Positions 15,609 through 38,078 of a stretch of 38,128 bases of DNA are shown in pieces (position 1 is the stretch's first letter; every line of letters begins with the position of its first letter). The stretch comes from Klebsiella pneumoniae. GTDB lineage: Bacteria; Pseudomonadota; Gammaproteobacteria; Eutrophobiales; Eutrophobiaceae. A program made the translations under genes and the position numbers. The stretch spans positions 1 through 38,128 of the forward strand of contig CAMBTO010000013.1 in the NCBI GenBank assembly GCA_945870865.1. Direction: 5' to 3'. A model generated the notes under the pieces. That model had not been told where the DNA came from. It saw only the letters and a program-made list of their open reading frames with translations, and ran no database searches.

Positions 15609-16442
15609 ATGAATAGCACAGGAGAAGTCAGCAGACTGGATGAAGGTCGCCGGTTGATCAGACAGAGTCGGATATTCCCCGCTTACATAGGTTGTTTCGA
15701 AGCGGAGGAACAGCGTGCCATTGTTGACGAGCTGACCAGGTGGGTGGAGGACCGCTACAGGCGGGAATTACAGGAACGTCCTTCGAAACATGAATACATC
15801 AGCAAGCTTCCCGGGGAAGTGATCGGGAAAATCGATCGTCTGCGTGACAGTACAGTGATACGTAATGCCATCAGCCGTAATTTTCCCCCGGCCTCGGTCT
15901 TGATCCCGATGAAACATACCGATGAGCTCTATATTTCCCACTATAACAAGGATCTGGGCGGGGATCAGGGTTTGTACAGCAAGCATTACGATGGAAACCT
16001 GCGTGTCTTGCCGGGTTACACGGTCGTACGTGCGCTGATTTATCTTCAGTCCGATCAGTCCTACAAGGTGATTTTTGGCAGCAGCCAGGTCGAAAAGGCC
16101 TTCACCACGTATGATTTCGGCCTGCTGGATTTTCACCGGGAATTGCACTGGGTGGAAGGCCGGTTCGACCCGGACTCCCCGCAACGGATCCTGCTCAAGT
16201 GTAATTACCTGGTCGCCCCGGCAAACAGGCGCCTGGTGACAGCGGCTGTACTTGGCGCGAACACAATGGTGTTTTACGTGGTGAAGGCGGCCATGGAATA
16301 TTCAAAAAGCCCAAAAAATCCAGCCCAGGTCCTGGTCGGTTTACTGTGTAATCTGTTCCGCCTGCTGAATAACGTGCATCCTCTGGTACCTATGCTTTTT
16401 ATGCTGCTGGTGATCGTTGGCATAGGCTGGGGGCTAATATAG
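15609..16442 (+). CDS. Unrecognised protein with a possible 2OG-Fe(II) oxygenase core and C-terminal membrane segments
   Basis: The protein has 277 residues from ATG 15609, chosen because GGAGAC lies 9-14 bases upstream; in-frame starts at 15519 and 15594 have no ribosome site. I do not recognise a named family. The middle has SKHYDGN (an HxD pair), then 55 or so residues later LLDFHRELHWVEG with a distal His, followed by RILLKCNYLV. That spacing and the LHWV strand resemble the double-stranded beta-helix fold of 2-oxoglutarate/Fe(II) dioxygenases; this is inference. The C terminus has a hydrophobic region (VPMLFMLLVIVGIGWGLI) that may anchor it in the membrane. A TonB-receptor fragment continues in the same frame right after the TAG, so the original C terminus may have been altered. 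Confidence 0.6.
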   Translation: MNSTGEVSRLDEGRRLIRQSRIFPAYIGCFEAEEQRAIVDELTRWVEDRYRRELQERPSKHEYISKLPGEVIGKIDRLRDSTVIRNAISRNFPPASVLIPMKHTDELYISHYNKDLGGDQGLYSKHYDGNLRVLPGYTVVRALIYLQSDQSYKVIFGSSQVEKAFTTYDFGLLDFHRELHWVEGRFDPDSPQRILLKCNYLVAPANRRLVTAAVLGANTMVFYVVKAAMEYSKSPKNPAQVLVGLLCNLFRLLNNVHPLVPMLFMLLVIVGIGWGLI

Positions 16443-16898
16443 GCGCGCTGGCAGGATTCCACCGTCACGGATCCCGTCACCGGCATTACCCGGAAACTCT
16501 CGGCCAACGGCGGGTTCAGCGGAAAACCCACGATCAATTTCTACAGTGAAAACGACTATGTCGTCGATATTGCCTACTGCCAGGATTTTGAAACATCCGG
16601 CTGGGCCTGGGGCTGGAACACGGCCGTCCAGGATGATCGTCTACTGTACAAGGTCAATGAACTGGAGGGTTTTGAGGAAGGTGTGGAGTTGAATGCATTC
16701 GTAGAGACCACCGCCTGGCTGGACATGAAAATCCGGCTCGAAGGCAACAACCTGCTGGACTATCTCGAGCTTCGTGACCGCCTGATCTTTGATGGACGAC
16801 GCGATCTGAGCCCCTTGCAGCAACGCGAACTCCGCTTGCGCAAACCTTCACGCTTACACATTTACATTCAGCGGGAGTTTCTAAATAAAAAGGAATAA
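16443..16898 (+). pseudogene. C-terminal fragment of a TonB-dependent receptor
   Basis: The frame immediately after the upstream TAG encodes ARWQDSTVTDPVTG, INFYSENDYVVDIAYCQDF, WAWGWNTAVQDDRLLYKVNE, GVELNAFVETTAWLDMKIRL and LHIYIQREFLNKKE, 151 codons to a TAA at 16896-16898. It aligns without gaps of note to the last ~150 residues of the intact receptor at 35967-38078, for example RWQDSSVIDPVTG, VNELDIIDESDLELNAFVET and VEGQNILNL. It covers the last barrel strands only; plug and most of the barrel are absent. No start codon or ribosome site is visible near 16443, so it is a non-functional remnant. A 45-base inverted repeat begins 4 bases after its stop. Confidence 0.85.
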
Positions 16899-16901
16899 AA
16901 A

Positions 16902-16946
16902 GGGGTCGGAGACAAAGAAAAGTGATTCTCATTTGTCTCCGACCCC
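16902..16946. repeat. Perfect inverted repeat GGGGTCGGAGACAAA / TTTGTCTCCGACCCC
   Basis: Arms at 16902-16916 and 16932-16946 pair perfectly over 15 bp around a 15-base spacer. Related sequences occur at 21855-21893, 32724-32738, 32805-32819 and, as a diverged form, 38108-38122. The form resembles REP-type termini of the kind mobilised by REP-associated tyrosine transposases; no such transposase gene is in the window. It may also end transcription of the upstream fragment. Confidence 0.75.
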
Positions 16947-16995
16947 ATTAATCGTATAATTCCAGCCCACATACACCCTTGTTCATTTCTTGATC

Positions 16996-17715
16996 ATGCA
17001 TAACAATCGACGTTCGTTTCTTAAAGGCGCAGGCGTGGCGCTGGGCGTGGCAGGTACGGCCGGTGTGCCCGTTGCCACGGTGCTTGCACAATCCACCATA
17101 GAGGCACTGCCCGCTGATACTACTCCGGTCATCCCGGGCTACCAATCGCTCAGCCTGGAAGAATCTGCCATTACCGAGGCGCTGGTCGAGCACATGTGGC
17201 CGGCGGATGATCTGGGGCCATCGGGTGTGGAGATAGGCATTGCCACGTTTATTGATCGCCAACTTGCCGGGGCGTTCGGCCGCGGCGACCGCCTGTATTC
17301 GCAGGGCCCGTTTCGGCAGGGCAAGCCACAACATGGCTACCAGTTGCCACTGACGCCGGAACAGTGGTTCAAGCTTGGGATCGCGGCGCTGAATAGCTAC
17401 AGTCAGAAGCTGCACGGCAAGACCTACGACAGGCTCGCTACCGCAGATCGTGAGGGCGTGCTGCTGGCCGTGGCCGGTGGTGAGGCCAATCTGCCCGAGC
17501 TGAATCTCGCCAGCTGGTTTAACGAACTGTTTTACCCCTTGTTCAACCAAGGCGCGTTTGCCGATCCAATTTATGGCGGCAACCGCGACAAATCCGGGTG
17601 GAAGCTGATCGGTTATCCGGGACTACCGGCCGTGTACAACCGCGATATCGTCACTTACCGTAACAAGCGCAATCCGAAGTCAGATGCGCCAAGATCGATC
17701 CAGGACCTGTCATGA
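16996..17715 (+). CDS. Gluconate 2-dehydrogenase subunit 3-like, Tat-exported partner subunit
   Basis: This protein has 239 residues from ATG 16996; a TTG two codons upstream is also possible, and neither has a clear Shine-Dalgarno. The N terminus has the twin-arginine motif NRRSFLKGAG, then a hydrophobic stretch and a cleavage site near TVLAQS. The mature part matches the gluconate-2-dehydrogenase subunit 3 (gamma) pattern: LTEALVEHMWPADDLGPSG-like residues, IGIATFIDRQLAGAFGRGD and YSQGPFRQGKPQHGYQLPLT. In this family the small subunit carries the flavoprotein across the membrane through Tat. Its stop overlaps the GMC start by ATGA, which implies coupled translation and a stable complex. Confidence 0.85.
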   Translation: MHNNRRSFLKGAGVALGVAGTAGVPVATVLAQSTIEALPADTTPVIPGYQSLSLEESAITEALVEHMWPADDLGPSGVEIGIATFIDRQLAGAFGRGDRLYSQGPFRQGKPQHGYQLPLTPEQWFKLGIAALNSYSQKLHGKTYDRLATADREGVLLAVAGGEANLPELNLASWFNELFYPLFNQGAFADPIYGGNRDKSGWKLIGYPGLPAVYNRDIVTYRNKRNPKSDAPRSIQDLS

Positions 17716-19466
17716 CGATACTGCCTGAGCGCGAAGTGGTCTTCATTGGCGGCGGGCTCACCGCCGGTCTGGTGGCGCGATCACTGGTCCCGGCGGGGCA
17801 CGATGTGCTGGTGCTGGAGCGCGGACCGGATCGCACCGGTGGCGCTGAGGCTGAGTTACCTACCCAACGCGACGAGCTGCGCTGGGGCACCCACCGCGGG
17901 CTGACACAGCGCGAGAATGTCGAAACTCTCACCTTGCGACATAACATTGATGAGCAGGCCTTGCCGATGCGACGCCTGACCAGTTTCCTGCCGGGTTTCG
18001 GTGTCGGTGGCGCAATCTCGCACTGGAACGGCCAGTGCTGGCGCTTCCAGACCACGGACCACACACTGCGAACCCATCTGGAAGGCCGCTACGGCAAGGC
18101 CGCCGTTGCCGACCTGTCTATCCAGGATTGGGGTGTGCAGTATGACGAACTCGAACCCTGGTACACCCTGTTTGAAAAACTGTTCGGCATCTCCGGCCAG
18201 GCCGGAAATCTGAAGGGCGTTGGTGTTGCCGGCGGCAATCCGTTCGAGCCGTATCGCAGTACACCCTATCCGTTGCCACCGCTGGAATCGGCACAATTCG
18301 GTTTGATGTTTCGGGAAGCGGCCAGCAGCCTCGGCTACCACCCGTTCCCGATGCCCGCGGCCAACGCCAGCAAGGTTTATACGAATCCCGACGGTATGCA
18401 GCTCGGCGCCTGCCAGTACTGCGGCCACTGCGAGCGTTTCCTGTGTGAGGCCAACGCCAAGGCATCGGCCACCAACCTGATGTTTCCGCTGGTGCGTGAC
18501 AAACAGAACTTCGAGTTGCGCGCGAATGCCGAGGTGCTCGAACTGAAATACGACAAGCGCGCCAAACGGGTTACGGCTGTCGTCTATGCCGATGTGCGCA
18601 CCGGCGAGGTCTTCGAACAGCCCGCCTCGACTGTGGTGCTTGGCGGTTATGTGTTTACCAATACCCGCTTGTTACTGCTGTCCGGCATCGGTCAGCCCTA
18701 CGATCCCGCGACAGGAGAGGGCGTGGTCGGCAAGAACTACTGCTATCAGACCACCTCCGGCGTGAATGTGTTCTTCGAGGATCACTACCTCAATCCGTTC
18801 ATGGGCGCTGGTGCACTTGGCATGACCATCGACGACTTTAACAACGATCATTTTGATCATTCCGGTCTCGGCTTCGTCGGCGGGGCCTATATCAGCGCGA
18901 ACACAATGAACGGCCGGCCCATCGACACGCGGCCGCTGCCACCCGGCACACCGCGCTGGGGCTCAAAGTGGAAGGAGGCGAATGCCAAATGGTATCTGCG
19001 CGGTGCAAACATCAACTGTCAGGGCAGCAGTTACGCCCAGCGCACTAATTATCTCGATCTCGATCCGGAATATCGCGACGCCTGGGGACGCCCGTTGTTG
19101 CGCATGACATTTGATTTCCCGGAGAACGATCTGAAGATGTCCGAATATGTGACCGGCAAGGCGCATGAAATTGCAAAAGCGATGGGCGCCACTATCACCA
19201 ATCCGGCCCCTCGCAAAGCCCCCTACGATGCACGCCCATACCAGACCACACACAACACTGGCGGCACCATCATGGGTGCCGATCCGAAGTCCAGCGTGGT
19301 GTCGCCACACCTGCAATGCTGGGATGCCGACAATCTGTTCATCAACGGCGCCAGCGTGTTCCCACAGAACTCCGGTTACAACCCGACCGGCCCGGTGGGC
19401 GCACTGGGTCTGCGACTTGGCGTTGATCTCGTCAACTATCTGCAACGACCACGGAGGCTGGGATGA
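17712..19466 (+). CDS. GMC-family FAD oxidoreductase (catalytic subunit)
   Basis: This 584-residue flavoprotein oxidises an alcohol or polyol group on an unidentified substrate. The N-terminal Rossmann motif is VVFIGGGLTAGLVARSL with the ribose-binding Glu at the end of LVLERG. A Cys cluster C234, C237, C240, C245 (CQYCGHCERFLC) matches that of gluconate/FAD-glucose dehydrogenase alpha subunits and may hold an Fe-S cluster. The C-terminal active-site region has THNTGGTIMGADP and NSGYNPTGPVGALG with the paired His and Asn. It has no signal peptide, so export would depend on the Tat signal of the preceding subunit. It overlaps both neighbours by ATGA. Electrons would pass to the cytochrome encoded next. 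Confidence 0.88.
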   Translation: MTILPEREVVFIGGGLTAGLVARSLVPAGHDVLVLERGPDRTGGAEAELPTQRDELRWGTHRGLTQRENVETLTLRHNIDEQALPMRRLTSFLPGFGVGGAISHWNGQCWRFQTTDHTLRTHLEGRYGKAAVADLSIQDWGVQYDELEPWYTLFEKLFGISGQAGNLKGVGVAGGNPFEPYRSTPYPLPPLESAQFGLMFREAASSLGYHPFPMPAANASKVYTNPDGMQLGACQYCGHCERFLCEANAKASATNLMFPLVRDKQNFELRANAEVLELKYDKRAKRVTAVVYADVRTGEVFEQPASTVVLGGYVFTNTRLLLLSGIGQPYDPATGEGVVGKNYCYQTTSGVNVFFEDHYLNPFMGAGALGMTIDDFNNDHFDHSGLGFVGGAYISANTMNGRPIDTRPLPPGTPRWGSKWKEANAKWYLRGANINCQGSSYAQRTNYLDLDPEYRDAWGRPLLRMTFDFPENDLKMSEYVTGKAHEIAKAMGATITNPAPRKAPYDARPYQTTHNTGGTIMGADPKSSVVSPHLQCWDADNLFINGASVFPQNSGYNPTGPVGALGLRLGVDLVNYLQRPRRLG

Positions 19467-19813
19467 AGTACGGTGTTTATCTGTCATTGGCACTGCTGTC
19501 GGTTTTGTCTACCGCAGCACAGGCACAGCCATCCGGGTTTGAACGCTGTGCCGTGTGCCACACAGTGACCGGCACCAGCGGCGAACAAGGCCCCAGTTTG
19601 CTCGGCATAGTCGGCCGTGCCGCTGGCGCCCTGGAAGATTTTCGTTACAGCCGCCCGATGACACGCAGTGGCATCACCTGGGATGAAACCACGCTCAATG
19701 ACTTCCTCCGCGCACCGGACGAGCTGGTGCCTGGCACGCGCATGCCGTTTGAAGGCATTGAATCAGACGCAGAGCGGGCGGCGGTCATTGAGTACCTGAA
19801 GACACTGAAATAG
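19463..19813 (+). CDS. Periplasmic monoheme cytochrome c (electron acceptor of the GMC dehydrogenase)
   Basis: This 116-residue protein has a Sec signal (YGVYLSLALLSVLSTAAQA) and one heme c site, CAVCH (Cys29, Cys32, His33). The distal ligand is probably Met94 in GTRMPFEGI. The fold pattern (GPSLLGIVGRAAG, then WDETTLNDFLRAPDELVPG) is that of class I cytochromes similar to mitochondrial cytochrome c. It overlaps the GMC gene by ATGA. In related three-subunit dehydrogenases the cytochrome partner is usually larger and multiheme, so this is a reduced version. It would hand electrons to the respiratory chain. Confidence 0.9.
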   Translation: MKYGVYLSLALLSVLSTAAQAQPSGFERCAVCHTVTGTSGEQGPSLLGIVGRAAGALEDFRYSRPMTRSGITWDETTLNDFLRAPDELVPGTRMPFEGIESDAERAAVIEYLKTLK

Positions 19814-19831
19814 CTTTATTATAGCGACAGC

Positions 19832-19876
19832 TACTTAGTTGTTCGAAATCTGGTGTGAATTGAGTAAACTGGCCCT
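19832..19876 (+). promoter_or_regulatory. Conserved upstream element, copy 1 (before the exported alpha/beta hydrolase)
   Basis: This stretch shares about 35 of 43 aligned positions with 21919-21961, upstream of the next gene. The common core is TTGTTCGAAA, then TGTGA, TTGA, AAACTG and CCCT. It ends about 25 bases before the ATG at 19901. TTCGAA is a palindrome. It is a candidate operator or promoter shared by two adjacent catabolic genes. Confidence 0.6.
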
Positions 19877-19900
19877 CGAATCACAGGGGAGGGGCAAATA

Positions 19901-21847
19901 ATGTTTAAAATTGATAATCCATATCTGAACTGGATCTCCGGCATACTGAATTACCGGAAACCACTTCTTGTCCATATCATCCAGTCAAGCCTTCTGGCAA
20001 CCACTGTGCTTACATCTCCTGCCAGCGCGCAGACAGGCTGTGAGTATCTGGATCAGTATCTGGCGCCACTGAAGTCAGAGGTGGAAGACTGGCAGACAGC
20101 ATTGGCCGGGCCCCAGGCAGGCGAAGTGCAACAACGTATGGTCGGGCCTGAAGAGTGCAGGGTTGTTGCAGAAACCATCATTCAGAATGCCCACGGCGTT
20201 CCCTATCGTCAGATCACGATGGCCCTTAGCGGTACCGTCTTTGGTTATGCACCGGTTCAAACGAAAGTTCTCCCCCCGTTGGGAAGCGGGCAGGAGGGTG
20301 AAGGTCGGGAAAACACGTTTACCGACCATGTTTTTATCACGCAGGCGCGTGGCAATATGGGTCCGTATAAACCCGGGACTGGACGCTATACATATTCGGA
20401 GGAAAATCCTAACAGCGTCGTCATTTTAATTCCGCAAAATGCCAACGACTGGAATGGCAGTATGTGGGTACTGGCACACGGGGCCTCCAGGTTCACCCCG
20501 CTGCAGTTTCATCCGCGTGAAGCCGGTAAGTTTAACCTTTACACCCAGACCAGTGAATCTGCCGGCGCCCTGATAGATGAGGGCTTTGCCGTTGTCTGGA
20601 CCCGTCGCGACGCCTCCGATGCCAATGATATCTCCTCGGATGTATCAAACACGGTGGTGCTGGATGATGGAACGCAGCTCGGCGGCCCCGGAAAGATCGG
20701 TATGGGGCTTAACAATCACCTGGGACTGATACGTGACTGGACAATAATCAGCCAGAATTTCATAGCAGAGCAACTCGGAAGAAAACCTGAGTACAAATTT
20801 TTCCGGGGACATTCTGCCGGTGCCGCCCTGGGTCGCAGCTTTGTTGTTATCAACGGTGTCAATGTCGATCATACGGGCAGTAAATTGTTCAACGGCTTTT
20901 TTCTGAATGACACCGCCGCCGGGCACGGATCTACGGCCTACTTCTGGGAACCTGCAATAGTAGATGAGAATGGCTCATTTCGACTGCAACCCAGTGAAAC
21001 CGATACGCTGACCTTTGGCAGTGAGCAAATGTCTCTTATGCCTCCGACTGTCGAAGTCATCCATGGTGCCTATCCCGGCGCATCCACATCGACCGTTCCT
21101 CACTTGTTTGAGCGGGTACCGGGGACCTATTACGACTACAAACTCGAAAACACCCGTATCAATATTGAAAAAGGTTTGGGGAACATCTGGAAAGCCTATG
21201 AAGTCGCCGGCACCGGCCACAGTGATGCATCCGCTGAAGCCTTTGATTATCCTGATCTTGCCAGAGACATGATTGATATTGGCGGTGTTGAAATGGCGCT
21301 GCATCACGCATTGTATGACTGGGTTGATACGGGTAAAAAACCGCCTCATACGCGTGTCGATGCGGTAGACGTGTGGGATCTGGATCCGGACGCAGGACCC
21401 GCCATTCAGTTACCTGAAACGGCATGCCCTCGCGGTATATACCGTCCCTATATGAATCGTCCTGATGGGACCGCTGTTGGTTCCAGCCCGGCGCTGTTCG
21501 TCCCATACCTGACCATGCCGGTTCCCCAAATCAATGTAGACCAGAAGCGTCCACCTAGCTTCAAGGAAGAATGGCTGGAGCCACTGGATGCCAATGGTCA
21601 TCTAGTGAATATGACCAACAGCTTTCTTCGTATGACCCGACCCTCTATCCAGCAGGTCTGGCACGTGCGCTATCGCAACGGTGAAAAAACTGGGATATTA
21701 CGACCCAATGAAAAATTGACCCGCGATCGATATGTTAGCTGTGTAACCGATGTCGCCAAGAGTCTGCATGCAGACAGACTGCTCACCGATGAAGCCCTTG
21801 ACTGGTATCTGGAAAAGGCGCGGACAGACGAAATCGGCGTTGATTAA
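19901..21847 (+). CDS. Large exported alpha/beta hydrolase (Abhydrolase_10-like)
   Basis: This is a 648-residue protein with an N-terminal hydrophobic signal or anchor (LLVHIIQSSLLATTVLTSP, then ASAQ). The nucleophile elbow is FRGHSAGAALGRS (Ser305), and the probable catalytic His is His440 in VAGTGHSDASAEAF. Other landmarks are VLAHGASRFTPLQFHPREAG and GFAVVWTRRDASD. The pattern fits the alpha/beta hydrolase domain family now called Abhydrolase_10, whose members are secreted and mostly uncharacterised; this placement is from memory of the motif set. A strong GGGGAGGGG ribosome site precedes the ATG. It stands alone on its own upstream element, with the amidohydrolase following after 177 bases. 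Confidence 0.75.
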   Translation: MFKIDNPYLNWISGILNYRKPLLVHIIQSSLLATTVLTSPASAQTGCEYLDQYLAPLKSEVEDWQTALAGPQAGEVQQRMVGPEECRVVAETIIQNAHGVPYRQITMALSGTVFGYAPVQTKVLPPLGSGQEGEGRENTFTDHVFITQARGNMGPYKPGTGRYTYSEENPNSVVILIPQNANDWNGSMWVLAHGASRFTPLQFHPREAGKFNLYTQTSESAGALIDEGFAVVWTRRDASDANDISSDVSNTVVLDDGTQLGGPGKIGMGLNNHLGLIRDWTIISQNFIAEQLGRKPEYKFFRGHSAGAALGRSFVVINGVNVDHTGSKLFNGFFLNDTAAGHGSTAYFWEPAIVDENGSFRLQPSETDTLTFGSEQMSLMPPTVEVIHGAYPGASTSTVPHLFERVPGTYYDYKLENTRINIEKGLGNIWKAYEVAGTGHSDASAEAFDYPDLARDMIDIGGVEMALHHALYDWVDTGKKPPHTRVDAVDVWDLDPDAGPAIQLPETACPRGIYRPYMNRPDGTAVGSSPALFVPYLTMPVPQINVDQKRPPSFKEEWLEPLDANGHLVNMTNSFLRMTRPSIQQVWHVRYRNGEKTGILRPNEKLTRDRYVSCVTDVAKSLHADRLLTDEALDWYLEKARTDEIGVD

Positions 21848-21854
21848 AATCCAG

Positions 21855-21893
21855 GGGCAGGGGGACAAATATTTCTCATTTGTCTCCGACTCC
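21855..21893. repeat. Degenerate copy of the GGAGACAAA inverted repeat
   Basis: TTTCTCATTTGTCTCCGACT (from 21872) matches the right arm of the repeat at 16902-16946 with one or two changes. The left part, GGGGGACAAAT, is more altered. A 7-bp stem GACAAAT/ATTTGTC remains. It lies between the exported hydrolase and the second copy of the conserved upstream element. Confidence 0.65.
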
Positions 21894-21918
21894 TTTAGTT
21901 TATAGTGAAAAAGACAAT

Positions 21919-21961
21919 TACTTGATTGTTCGAAACTCGATGTGATTTGAAAACTGACCCT
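21919..21961 (+). promoter_or_regulatory. Conserved upstream element, copy 2 (before the first amidohydrolase)
   Basis: It has the same core as 19832-19876: TACTTGATTGTTCGAAA, TGTGA, TTGA, AAACTG and CCCT, with two bases deleted. The similarity extends a little upstream (TTATAG). This copy ends 63 bases before the ATG at 22025, so a further leader lies between. Confidence 0.6.
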
Positions 21962-22024
21962 GGAGTCTGCGAGTCTGACGGCGAAATATCATTACTGACA
22001 ATACGAAAACAGGAGTAGAACCGG

Positions 22025-23716
22025 ATGATTAAGCGAATTTGTCTACCCATCATGTTGTTATCACTCGCGGCAACTCCACTTTTTGCACAGCAAATGTTAT
22101 CTACTGTCCCGGATACGATTTTTTACAATGGCAAGATAGTTACGGTAGACAATGAATCGAGTATCGTCGAGGCTGTTGCGGTAAAAAACGACCGCTTTCT
22201 CGCCGTGGGTAGTACCGATGAGATCCGGGCCCTTGCCGGACCTGACACACGCCTGACTGACTTGCGCGGCCACACGGTTGTCCCCGGGTTAATGGACAAC
22301 CATAGTCATCAATATCATCTCGCCCTGCTGACCTTACGCGGTATTGATATGGAAAATGTGGGTTCGCTGAAAGAGATGCTTACGCGCCTGCAACAGGCAG
22401 TCAGGGATGCATCCCCCGGCGAAACAATTTTGACCCGAATGGGGGGCTGGGACCCCGCGAAGTTTCCTGAAGGACGCACACCTACACTCCAGGAACTGGA
22501 TCAGCTTAGCCTGGACCATCCAATTATCGTCGTGGAAAGTCGACAAACGTTACATGTTAATACCGCAGCCCTGAACGCCCTTGGCCTTTCCCAAAATACC
22601 GTGCCACCCCGGATTACCGTTGGCAAGGATAAGGCAGGCTCGCTGAATGGTGTGGTGTTCGGCCGAGGTGCAGCGGCCCTGCATCTCACCGCCAGGGGCG
22701 TTCCTCCGCCTGATCTCGATCAGAAAAAGGCCATGCTTGCAAAAATGATGGCCCAACAGAATTCAATGGGCCTGACCAGCATCCGTGACCTGCAACTTTA
22801 TCCTGAGGTGATGCGGGCGTATTACGAACTCTGGCGCGAAGGCGCACTGAGTATGCGCATCAGTATGGGTCTTGAGTTAAATGCCGGCGAGGAGTCTGGT
22901 CTTGAGCAGATGCTTAGCCCCTGGGGTGTGGGTTCCGGTTTCGGAGATGAATGGTTAAGAATTGATGGCGTTGCCGAGTTTAACCCCGGAGACACGGTAC
23001 GCGAGCCTTATAGTGATAGCGATGGAAGTGACAGGGGTGAATTTCGTACACCCGAAGCGAGTTTCAAAAAGGCCATCCTTACAATGAATCGCTATGGCTG
23101 GCGTCCTTCAATTCATGTGGAAGGGGACAGAACGCTGGATATGGTGCTTGATGCCTATGAAGCTGCCAATCAGGAACGATCCATTCTGGACAGACGCTGG
23201 ATAGTTGAACATGTACAGCTCATCCATCCCGATCAGATCGAGCGCATCAAACGTCTGGGTATCATGGTATCCGCGCAGTACCAGCCCTACACTGGTTACC
23301 GTGAAATATTGAGTGCGTGGGGGAAGGAAAGGACAGAACAGGTCTTGCCAATGCGGGATTTTCTGGATCAAGGCATCATCGTCTCCGGAGGCAGTGACTG
23401 GCCAAGTTTTCCCAACAACCCGTTCCTGAATATTTATTTCTATGTCACCCGCAAGACTATGGATCAGGAAATGGTTATCGGAGCAAATCAGAAGATTGAC
23501 CGTATGGAAGCCCTGCGGGTCATGTCGCTTAATAACGCTTATCTTACCTATGAAGAAAAAATAAAAGGGTCGATAGAGCCTGGCAAACTGGCTGACTTTT
23601 TAATACTCTCCCAGGACCTGCTGACTGTGCCAGAAGATCAGATACGGGAAATTGTCCCGTTAGCTACCTATGTAGGTGGACGTAATGTTTACTCCAGGGC
23701 TGGAGGGGGTTTTTAA
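22025..23716 (+). CDS. Exported amidohydrolase, Amidohydro_3/YtcJ-like (paralogue 1)
   Basis: This 563-residue metal-dependent hydrolase has a Sec signal (RICLPIMLLSLAATPLFA then QQ). It would cleave amide or other C-N/C-O bonds of a small molecule in the periplasm. The N-terminal composite beta-sheet reads FYNGKIVTVDN, the HxH metal site is VVPGLMDNHSHQYH, and later landmarks are IHVEGDRTLDMV, WIVEHVQLIHP and VSGGSDWPSFPNNP, where the Asp is the usual ligand. The C-terminal sheet ends PGKLADFLILSQDLLTVPED. AGGAG precedes the ATG at 9-13 bases. It is paralogous to 28423-30072, with shared LAGPDTR and PGL-DN-H motifs. Confidence 0.87.
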   Translation: MIKRICLPIMLLSLAATPLFAQQMLSTVPDTIFYNGKIVTVDNESSIVEAVAVKNDRFLAVGSTDEIRALAGPDTRLTDLRGHTVVPGLMDNHSHQYHLALLTLRGIDMENVGSLKEMLTRLQQAVRDASPGETILTRMGGWDPAKFPEGRTPTLQELDQLSLDHPIIVVESRQTLHVNTAALNALGLSQNTVPPRITVGKDKAGSLNGVVFGRGAAALHLTARGVPPPDLDQKKAMLAKMMAQQNSMGLTSIRDLQLYPEVMRAYYELWREGALSMRISMGLELNAGEESGLEQMLSPWGVGSGFGDEWLRIDGVAEFNPGDTVREPYSDSDGSDRGEFRTPEASFKKAILTMNRYGWRPSIHVEGDRTLDMVLDAYEAANQERSILDRRWIVEHVQLIHPDQIERIKRLGIMVSAQYQPYTGYREILSAWGKERTEQVLPMRDFLDQGIIVSGGSDWPSFPNNPFLNIYFYVTRKTMDQEMVIGANQKIDRMEALRVMSLNNAYLTYEEKIKGSIEPGKLADFLILSQDLLTVPEDQIREIVPLATYVGGRNVYSRAGGGF

Positions 23717-24140
23717 TCAATACTTCGATCAGATGGTGATAGGCTAAAAAGCTTAAAGGAACAGTCGCGTTTAACCGGATATGTGCCCACAGAGACTCAT
23801 CGTTAGGTTCGAACACGACCCACTTAAGCCCTTGATACAGGCTTTCCATAATAAACAGCGCCGTGCGTCGCACCGGGATATATTTATACTCATGGTACAG
23901 GCGATCGGCGCCGCGCATGGTCCTCGCGCCCAAACAGATGTTGCCTAGTCCCGGAAAGCTCCGCTTGGTGTGGCAATACGTAAGAGCCTCACCACGCATG
24001 CCGCGTCCCAACGCGGTCACCGACAGCGTGGCACCGTTGAGGGTGCTCGCTACTGCCGCTGTTAACGCCTCCCGACGCACGGCGTGCATCGTCGGTGTTG
24101 CTTCTTCCAATAACCCTTCTGGAATATGTTGTGCATGCAT
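23664..24140 (-). pseudogene. Chimeric remnant: IS4-family transposase N terminus joined to phage tail sheath fragment
   Basis: The open frame has three parts. Residues 1-60 (ATPTMHAVRREALTAAVAS, NGATLSVTALGRGM, HTKR) resemble the N terminus of IS4-family transposases. Residues 61 to about 124 (FPGLGNICLGARTM, YIPVRRTALFIMESLYQGLK, WVVFEPNDESLWAHIRLN) match the C-terminal core of phage or contractile-injection tail sheath proteins. The last 34 residues resemble nothing I know. Neither partner is complete: no DDE catalytic residues and no sheath N terminus. Recombination between mobile and phage DNA followed by decay is the likely history. The 3' end overlaps the amidohydrolase end on the other strand by 53 bases. 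Supported similarity spans about 23769-24140. Confidence 0.7.
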
Positions 24141-24257
24141 GGCGTTCTCCTATGAGTCTGTCAGTTTCGCAACCGATCAGATCATTGAAGGCCATGCATG
24201 TTCCCTGAATGCGCTACATTATTGATCAGGTGGGCGTTTTAGTGGGGATACCACAGA

Positions 24258-24412
24258 GACAGTTAACTTAATTATGGGAGTTGGGAGTGAATAATTCCAA
24301 TGTGTCTGCTTCGCAGTACGGATTAGTTCGACTGGATTCTGGCGTTCGCCAGAATGACGGGGTTGAGGTTGGTCGTAGACGGTCAGGGTATTCGAGGACG
24401 GTTAACTTAATT
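24258..24412. repeat. Direct repeats flanking a hairpin unit at the 3' end of ctaA
   Basis: GACAGTTAACTTAATT (24258-24273) and GACGGTTAACTTAATT (24397-24412) are 16-bp direct repeats with one mismatch. Between them lies ATTCTGGCGTTCGCCAGAAT (24336-24355), a perfect 9-bp hairpin preceded by the dispersed GACTGG border. The second direct repeat contains the ctaA stop codon. This looks like a small inserted element flanked by a duplicated target, or a partial tandem duplication. The rest of 24141-24406 holds no gene. Confidence 0.55.
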
Positions 24413-32723: not shown

Positions 32724-32738
32724 TGGGGTCGGAGACAA
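32724..32738. repeat. GGGGTCGGAGACAA repeat copy in the leader of the beta-lactamase-fold gene
   Basis: The first 14 bases match the left arm at 16902 exactly. It lies 22 bases upstream of the start at 32702 (minus strand). No paired right arm is present, so it is a half copy, in the same orientation as the next copy. Confidence 0.6.
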
Positions 32739-32804
32739 CACAGTATGGTTATCACGACACCGCCTCATTTTTATTCTCTGTTGCCTTGCATTCTAGATGT
32801 AAAA

Positions 32805-32827
32805 GGGGCCGGAGACAAAGGAGAATA
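32805..32827. repeat. GGGGCCGGAGACAAA repeat copy that supplies the ribosome site of the lipoprotein gene
   Basis: It matches the left arm with one change (T to C), followed by GGAGAATA. The canonical continuation at 16932 (opposite strand) is TGAGAAT; here a T-to-G change makes GGAG, which sits 8 bases before the TTG start at 32832. Confidence 0.6.
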
Positions 32828-35966: not shown

Positions 35967-38078
35967 TTAAAAAGATCCGGTCAGGATCAGGAACAGTCTG
36001 AATCCCTTCTCGCGGGCACGCCATTCGCGGCGTTCGATACCGGTCAGTGCAAGATTGCGCGTGTCGATAAATATCGTCCTGTTGCGTTCCTCCGCCAGAT
36101 TCAGGATATTCTGGCCCTCGACCCGGACCTTGATATCAGCCCAGCGCGTGGTCTCGACAAATGCGTTTAACTCAAGGTCGCTCTCGTCGATGATGTCGAG
36201 TTCATTCACCTTGAACAGGATGCGGTCGCCGCGTTCGGCAAAATCCCAGCCCCAGGCAACCCGGGTAGTATTGAAATCCTGCCGGTAGGCAACATCATAA
36301 ACATAATCGTATTCATCACTATCATCCCGGAACGGGATGATGGTCGGTCCACCAAAGCCGGTCTTGCCGGACAGTACGCGGTTCTGGCCGGTGACTGGAT
36401 CGATAACCGAGCTGTCCTGCCAGCGTACCTTTACATCAATGCGCGCACTGGTCAGCCCAGTCCATTCGAGCGGAATCGTTGATTCTAATTCCAGTCCCAA
36501 ACGGTGACCGTCACCGATATTGCCCGGCACCTCGAATTCGGGTGTCAACGGCAACAGGTCCTGCACATCGGTAATGGCATGATAGAACGCCGTTATGCTC
36601 AGCACACCCAGTTGGCCGAATCTCTTCTCTGCGCCCAGTTCGCTGACCCAGGTTCGTTCCGGCCGCAGGTCCGTATTACCGAGCGCCAGATCGTCATCCT
36701 CGAACACGGACGAGCTGATGAATTCGTTGAAGTCCAGCTGTGCGATCTCGCGGGCAATGCGCATGTGTAGCTGATGCTGTGGGTCGAGCGCCCAGACCAG
36801 CTGTGCCTGGGGTTTCAGATAGTTAAAAGTGCGCTTGCGGTTATCATCACTCTCGGACGAGATGGTTGAGCGTTCTATTCCAAGGCCATAGTTCAGGGTG
36901 ACGGTCCGGTGTGTCCAGCTATCCAGCAATAATGCGTCCCACCGCAGTTCATCTACACGTGTGTTTGCGCCTGGCACATCGACAGGTAACGGACCGAGTC
37001 CGCGGTCCTCGAACTGGCGCTGTGTCCCGTCGACCGAGTTATAAGCCAGTTCGAGATTGGCCTGCACGGAGTGGCCGGTCCAGCCAGACCAGTCCAGTTC
37101 CAGACGGCCGATATTTTCGCGCGTCCCGGTATCGGTTTTTGCCTCGCGATAAAACGTCGTCTTGCCATTGGCAGCATCGACACTGCGCTGATCCGCATCA
37201 CGCGTATTGTTTTTGCTGTAGATTAACCAGATAGCCTTGCCGGTAATGTCAGCCGAGAGTTGCCGCTCGGCATCCAGTCCAAACTCCAGCGCATGCGTCC
37301 CCTGGTCGTCACCGAAAAATTCGTCGTGGCGAGTACCGTTGTTCGCCAATGGCACACGGATCGAAGTCGTCAAACCATCCTGATTCGAAACGGCCAGTTT
37401 GGTATTCAGGCGCACCCGGGTTGCCCCAAACAACGAATTCGCATTCAGGTTGATCTCGCCGGCACTACTGTCGCGAAAGTTGTTATCATCGCGTTGCTCG
37501 ACCTGACCACCTGTACTGTTATAGATACGCTCCGGCCCCTTGTAACTGCGCGGATTCAGCTCGGCCGAGAATCCTGCATTATAATCAATCTGGTGCCAGC
37601 GGTCAGACAGTGAGATCCCCGCCTCCGGTCCAAATTGCCGATTATTGAAATTGCGGCGAAAACCTGCCCTCCAGCGGATGGCGGCCGGCTCGTCCTTATG
37701 TAATATGATATTTGCGACGACAGTCTGTCCCTGCAGGTCGGCCGCGCCGGCATTGCCACGTATCAGTTCGATACGCTCGACATGACTGGCCGGGATACGG
37801 GTCAGGATCGCAGACAGTACATCCTGCTTTGTACTTGGTCGCCGTCCATCGATCAGGATATTGCCGGCCGCTCCGCCGAATCCGCGCAGACTGTCGCCAT
37901 CATCGAGTTGAAAGCCGGGGATCTGTTGCACCATGTCGAGCGCGGTATCAGGCTGATATTGTGCGAAAAACCCGGCCGCATAATCAACCCTTTCATCCCG
38001 GTTCACGTCCTGCGCATACGCCGGTAACGCCAGAAACAAAAGCAGACAAGCTGGAACTTTTCGTAACTGACAAATCAT
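35967..38078 (-). CDS. TonB-dependent outer membrane receptor
   Basis: This 703-residue receptor imports a ligand across the outer membrane with TonB energy. It has a Sec signal (ACLLLFLALPAYA then QD). The plug domain reads DTALDMVQQIPGFQLDDGDS, then LRGFGGAAGNILIDGRRPST and IPASHVERIELIRGNAGAAD. The barrel includes a YNAGFSAELNPRS strand and ends in an aromatic residue (ILTGSF), as outer-membrane proteins usually do. No clear TonB box is identified. The group resembles receptors for organic ligands or small oligomers rather than classical siderophore receptors, but the ligand is unknown. Its C-terminal part has a paralogous fragment at 16443-16898. A GGGGTCAGAGTAAAA repeat lies 29 bases before its ATG. 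Confidence 0.9.
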   Translation of the reverse strand: MICQLRKVPACLLLFLALPAYAQDVNRDERVDYAAGFFAQYQPDTALDMVQQIPGFQLDDGDSLRGFGGAAGNILIDGRRPSTKQDVLSAILTRIPASHVERIELIRGNAGAADLQGQTVVANIILHKDEPAAIRWRAGFRRNFNNRQFGPEAGISLSDRWHQIDYNAGFSAELNPRSYKGPERIYNSTGGQVEQRDDNNFRDSSAGEINLNANSLFGATRVRLNTKLAVSNQDGLTTSIRVPLANNGTRHDEFFGDDQGTHALEFGLDAERQLSADITGKAIWLIYSKNNTRDADQRSVDAANGKTTFYREAKTDTGTRENIGRLELDWSGWTGHSVQANLELAYNSVDGTQRQFEDRGLGPLPVDVPGANTRVDELRWDALLLDSWTHRTVTLNYGLGIERSTISSESDDNRKRTFNYLKPQAQLVWALDPQHQLHMRIAREIAQLDFNEFISSSVFEDDDLALGNTDLRPERTWVSELGAEKRFGQLGVLSITAFYHAITDVQDLLPLTPEFEVPGNIGDGHRLGLELESTIPLEWTGLTSARIDVKVRWQDSSVIDPVTGQNRVLSGKTGFGGPTIIPFRDDSDEYDYVYDVAYRQDFNTTRVAWGWDFAERGDRILFKVNELDIIDESDLELNAFVETTRWADIKVRVEGQNILNLAEERNRTIFIDTRNLALTGIERREWRAREKGFRLFLILTGSF

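Follow-up and report, generated by a model that had tools for sequence, protein, structure and literature searches.

Two neighbouring but unrelated enzyme genes, encoding an alpha/beta hydrolase and an amidohydrolase, are preceded by closely similar non-coding segments (copies A and B) within a 38,128-nucleotide stretch of DNA that was analysed at its full length (the window). We attribute this pair, with a probability of roughly 0.6, to an old local duplication of a promoter-carrying intergenic segment of about 55 bases, which would have left the hydrolase and the amidohydrolase genes each starting from similar sequence. The shared element is real but ordinary. On sequence grounds, duplication is a simpler account of it than a regulon, and at most the element suggests joint expression of the two enzymes.

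An extended similarity confined to one locus

Local alignment of copies A and B yields 45 matches over 54 aligned bases with three short gaps. Its score is 46 (44–46 overall), whereas none of 2000 dinucleotide-shuffled pairs exceeded 28. Elsewhere in the 38 kb window, no place scores above 28 in local alignment with either copy. In the interval 16400–24400, no direct repeat returned by an ungapped repeat search was longer than this pair (38 nt, 76%, spacing 2087), which places the two copies as direct repeats on either side of the hydrolase gene. Common to both are TTGTTCGAAA, TGTGA-TTGA, AAACTG-CCCT and GA, with the AAACTG register requiring a two-base gap between GAGTAAACT in copy A and GAAAACT in copy B. 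The coordinates first given for the shared upstream stretch were correct, and the similarity runs slightly further on both sides (Table 1).

Both copies are non-coding: copy A follows the stop of the cytochrome c gene (19813) and precedes the ATG of the hydrolase gene (19901), and copy B occupies the next spacer, which runs from the hydrolase stop (21847) to the ATG of the amidohydrolase gene (22025). The genes behind them are indeed unrelated, as the preliminary description had held, belonging to Abhydrolase_10-like and Amidohydro_3 families. The similarity ends near the expected transcript beginnings and does not reach the start codons; leftward, its extension behind the cytochrome c gene is barely above the locus background. 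We also considered a larger duplicated unit, reaching left to the cytochrome c stop and represented in a sister species by complementary halves, and rejected it: striking against shuffles, it exceeded the locus background only marginally. Because the similarity of about 55 bases takes in bases outside the recognizable motifs, we prefer common ancestry by duplication, and both the extended similarity and the confinement of its copies to one locus are what a local duplication predicts.

Table 1 Features at and around the two copies of the shared upstream element
Feature	Position	Strand	Basis or remark
Cytochrome c gene	19463..19813	+	Ends the series Gluconate_2-dh3, GMC oxidoreductase, cytochrome c that precedes copy A
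Copy A, upstream of hydrolase gene	19826..19882	+	Core TTGTTCGAAATCTGGTGTGAATTGAGTAAACTGGCCCTCGA 19839-19879; alignment, repeat search
Possible -10 hexamer TAAACT, copy A	19865..19870	+	Inferred
Alpha/beta hydrolase gene, 648 aa	19901..21847	+	Weak Abhydrolase_10 match, below Pfam cut-off
REP-like palindrome/stem-loop right after hydrolase stop	21854..21893	+	Degenerate member of GGGGTCGGAGACAAA family; adjoins copy B, not part of it
Copy B, upstream of amidohydrolase gene	21913..21967	+	Core TTGTTCGAAACTCGATGTGATTTGAAAACTGACCCTGGA 21926-21964; alignment, repeat search
Possible -10 hexamer AAAACT, copy B	21950..21955	+	TTGTTC 18 nt upstream = weak -35
Amidohydrolase gene (Amidohydro_3), 563 aa	22025..23716	+	Pfam

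Possible promoter signals at the two copies

Given their location, we infer that each copy is a promoter. A scan for sigma-70 promoters listed no site at copy A or B, and neither copy has a near-consensus -35/-10 pair with 16–18 nt spacing: in combination with TAAACT or AAAACT, the best -35 matches 3–4 of 6 bases, and no spacing gives either copy a good -35. If AAACT is taken as the -10, the distance to the ATG is about 20–22 nt for copy A versus about 60–61 nt for copy B; since these distances differ, the copies are not a translation signal. The preliminary description had called the shared stretch a regulatory or promoter element rather than shared coding ancestry. Its non-coding character and promoter-like position before two starts bear this out, but the missing sigma-70 site and the poor -35 leave promoter activity putative.

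Elsewhere in the genus, a TTGACH-N17-GANACT motif lies upstream of 8 of 14 hydrolase homologues (loci L014, L015, L016, L019, L021, L022, L023 and L025) and may represent a common promoter whose -10 is unusual. With the GAMACT form of the TTGACH-N17 motif occurring only 9 times in 832 kb of fetched DNA (both strands), this form is strongly tied to hydrolase-homologue genes. Because eight hydrolase homologues have TTGACH-N17-GANACT upstream, NAAACT is credible as a -10 in this genus.

Under the duplication that we favour, a promoter-bearing intergenic segment would have been copied within the module, giving two unrelated enzyme genes similar upstream DNA. Each promoter would combine an NAAACT -10 and a poor -35, the latter possibly helped by an activator acting on the invariant TTGTTCGAAA-N5-TGTG block, and the hydrolase and amidohydrolase genes would be co-expressed.

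A sister species retains one of the two copies

The sister species (G001, locus L010) has the same run of GMC, cytochrome c, hydrolase and amidohydrolase genes, with hydrolase and amidohydrolase 95% and 96% identical to those of this genome, and the surroundings of the module differ between the two. Copy B is kept there before the orthologous amidohydrolase (39/43 aligned bases). Its identity of 90–91%, set against 94% for the left flank and 85% for the right, makes the element no better conserved than its flanks; a deletion lies directly beside copy B in this comparison, and copy B is still 91% identical. Copy A is absent from the sister: homology behind the cytochrome c gene ends at window position 19837, coinciding exactly with the left edge of the copy A core, and restarts at 19897. 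In its place are about 2.1 kb (L010 10042-12001) with a LuxR-type regulator gene, divergent from the hydrolase gene, and a PEP-CTERM protein gene. In this one relative with both orthologues, the element is present before the amidohydrolase and absent before the hydrolase.

Copy A is about equally distant from both B copies (82–83% identical), and the B copies are closer to one another (90%). These values hint at a duplication that predates the species split, followed by loss of copy A from the sister as its hydrolase leader was replaced, the counts being too small for certainty. Invariant bases are not significantly clustered among the three copies (p about 0.14); as the element is also conserved about as well as its flanks, selection on it is not demonstrated. 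The sister comparison offers a small case of putative promoter duplication and replacement.

Comparison of the two loci also identified positions 16437-16859 as the remnant of an outer-membrane receptor gene, comprising the last ~140 codons only and 91% identical to the receptor that heads the module in the sister (L010 14969-16915). A full-length receptor, 47% identical, is encoded at 35967-38078.

The element does not recur as a regulon would

The two copies had been proposed to define a regulon for the unknown substrate, a reading that a genome-wide motif scan does not support. In the 2.17 Mb genome a gapped pattern matches copies A and B and nothing else, and a longer pattern allowing up to three mismatches again returned these alone. 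The core pattern with three mismatches added one match in this genome, inside the coding sequence of another hydrolase, and across the genus such matches were about as frequent as those of a reversed-pattern control (0 to 3 per strand and genome). Relaxing the pattern to a very loose 14-base form raised the count to 21 matches versus 8 in the control, most of them within long ORFs; among those inspected, none continued into AAACTG.

Searching 58 related genomes produced one other bona fide match, in the sister species of the same genus. A second match within the family falls in a CRISPR array and was set aside as chance; the array itself (L007 448-3025) has a 36–37 nt repeat, GTTGTGATTTGAAGGGAATCGTTGTTTGGTTACACT. 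Across 84,980 species the exact core has five matches, one of which must be the sister-species locus (CAMDWI010000008.1, L050). We regard the other four as chance, given that they come from unrelated archaea or bacteria and do not have the AAACTG-CCCT tail.

Within the genus, five genomes together encode 15 homologues of the hydrolase. Neither the 14 others nor seven other amidohydrolase homologues have the element upstream, which ties it to the locus rather than to either gene family. Nor is a cognate regulator evident nearby: Pfam scans, which left a few ORFs without any match, assigned none of the main window ORFs to a DNA-binding regulator family. Being local and lineage-specific, the shared element is of no use for finding further genes for the unknown substrate.

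A dispersed palindrome adjoins copy B

The stem-loop between the hydrolase stop and copy B (-18 kcal/mol, z -2.85) probably limits read-through from the hydrolase gene. Its position directly after the hydrolase stop makes a separate amidohydrolase promoter sensible, and copy B would let the amidohydrolase be transcribed separately past it. The stem-loop appeared single-copy only under too strict a pattern; the repeat search placed it as a degenerate member of a dispersed family, GGGGTCGGAGACAAA-N15-TTTGTCTCCGACCCC, which has 9 half-sites here and 9 in the sister, the reversed control giving at most one. The family consensus is AAAGGGGTCGGAGACAAAGGAGAAT...TTTGTCTCCGACCCCTTT, its members in the window lie at 16899-16949, 21854-21893, 32725-32739 and 32805-32819, and its copy number is low for REP.

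The preliminary description had named origin as a fragment of a dispersed repeat as grounds for abandoning its proposal. We found no such origin: the element exists in two copies, it falls inside none of the inverted repeats of the locus returned by the repeat search, and the palindrome adjoins copy B without including it.

Alternative explanations

A dedicated regulator could bind an operator, TTGTTCGAAA-N5-TGTGA-N-TTGA, before both genes and switch them on jointly with the substrate, forming a two-site local regulon. The catabolic gene setting, the palindromic TTCGAA and the rigid spacing of TTGTTCGAAA, TGTG and TTGA in all three copies (with the next two bases varying) lend this idea some appeal, but we consider it unlikely: apart from the sister, neither the genome nor the 84,980 other species yielded additional sites, the window proteins scanned include no transcription-factor family, the invariant positions are not significantly clustered, and the sister has the site before the amidohydrolase gene alone, its hydrolase gene being preceded by a divergent LuxR-type gene. 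A narrower version, in which a lineage-specific regulator recognizing an undescribed putative site, TTGTTCGAAA-N5-TGTG-N2-TTGA, controls only the hydrolase/amidohydrolase pair, and control of the sister's hydrolase has passed to the newly inserted divergent LuxR-type gene, seems to us improbable; if true, it would be a snapshot of regulatory rewiring. The similarity might instead be a functionless duplicated spacer, a by-product of module rearrangement such as insertion of a hydrolase block between the cytochrome c and amidohydrolase genes. This would fit direct repeats flanking the hydrolase gene, a break in sister homology that coincides precisely with the left boundary of the copy A core (19837), the different surroundings of the module in the sister and the equal conservation of element and flanks. 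We nevertheless find it doubtful, as copy B in the sister is still 91% identical although a deletion adjoins it, and both copies stand at promoter distance from start codons.

Derivation from a REP, MITE or other dispersed repeat draws on the real dispersed palindrome directly upstream of copy B, yet it is very improbable for an element that has only two genome copies, that does not follow the other palindrome members listed and whose copy A is not accompanied by a palindrome. Hardly credible at all are chance similarity, which the alignment score sets far outside the 2000 shuffles, and a structured RNA element, for which neither copy gave an Rfam match beyond noise or a fold more stable than shuffles (z -0.46 for A and +1.07 for B).

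Comparison with known systems

REP/BIME palindromes and RAYT-associated repeats (PMC2817692) resemble the palindrome adjoining copy B; the element itself differs from them in having two copies and no palindrome. The usual REP abundance is given as >100 copies per genome (PMC2817692), of which the 9 half-sites of the adjacent family fall short. Operator pairs of local catabolic regulons likewise present two similar sites before catabolic genes, but here no regulator was found beside the genes and no further sites were detected, there is no clear symmetry, and the sister keeps one site. Examples of such operator pairs are LysR-, AraC- or GntR-type sites. Duplicated or captured promoter segments also occur in bacterial genomes. 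The present case departs from these in a -35 that is poor by the sigma-70 consensus and in promoter activity that is putative, and it matches them in its short non-coding stretch standing before two unrelated neighbours at one locus.
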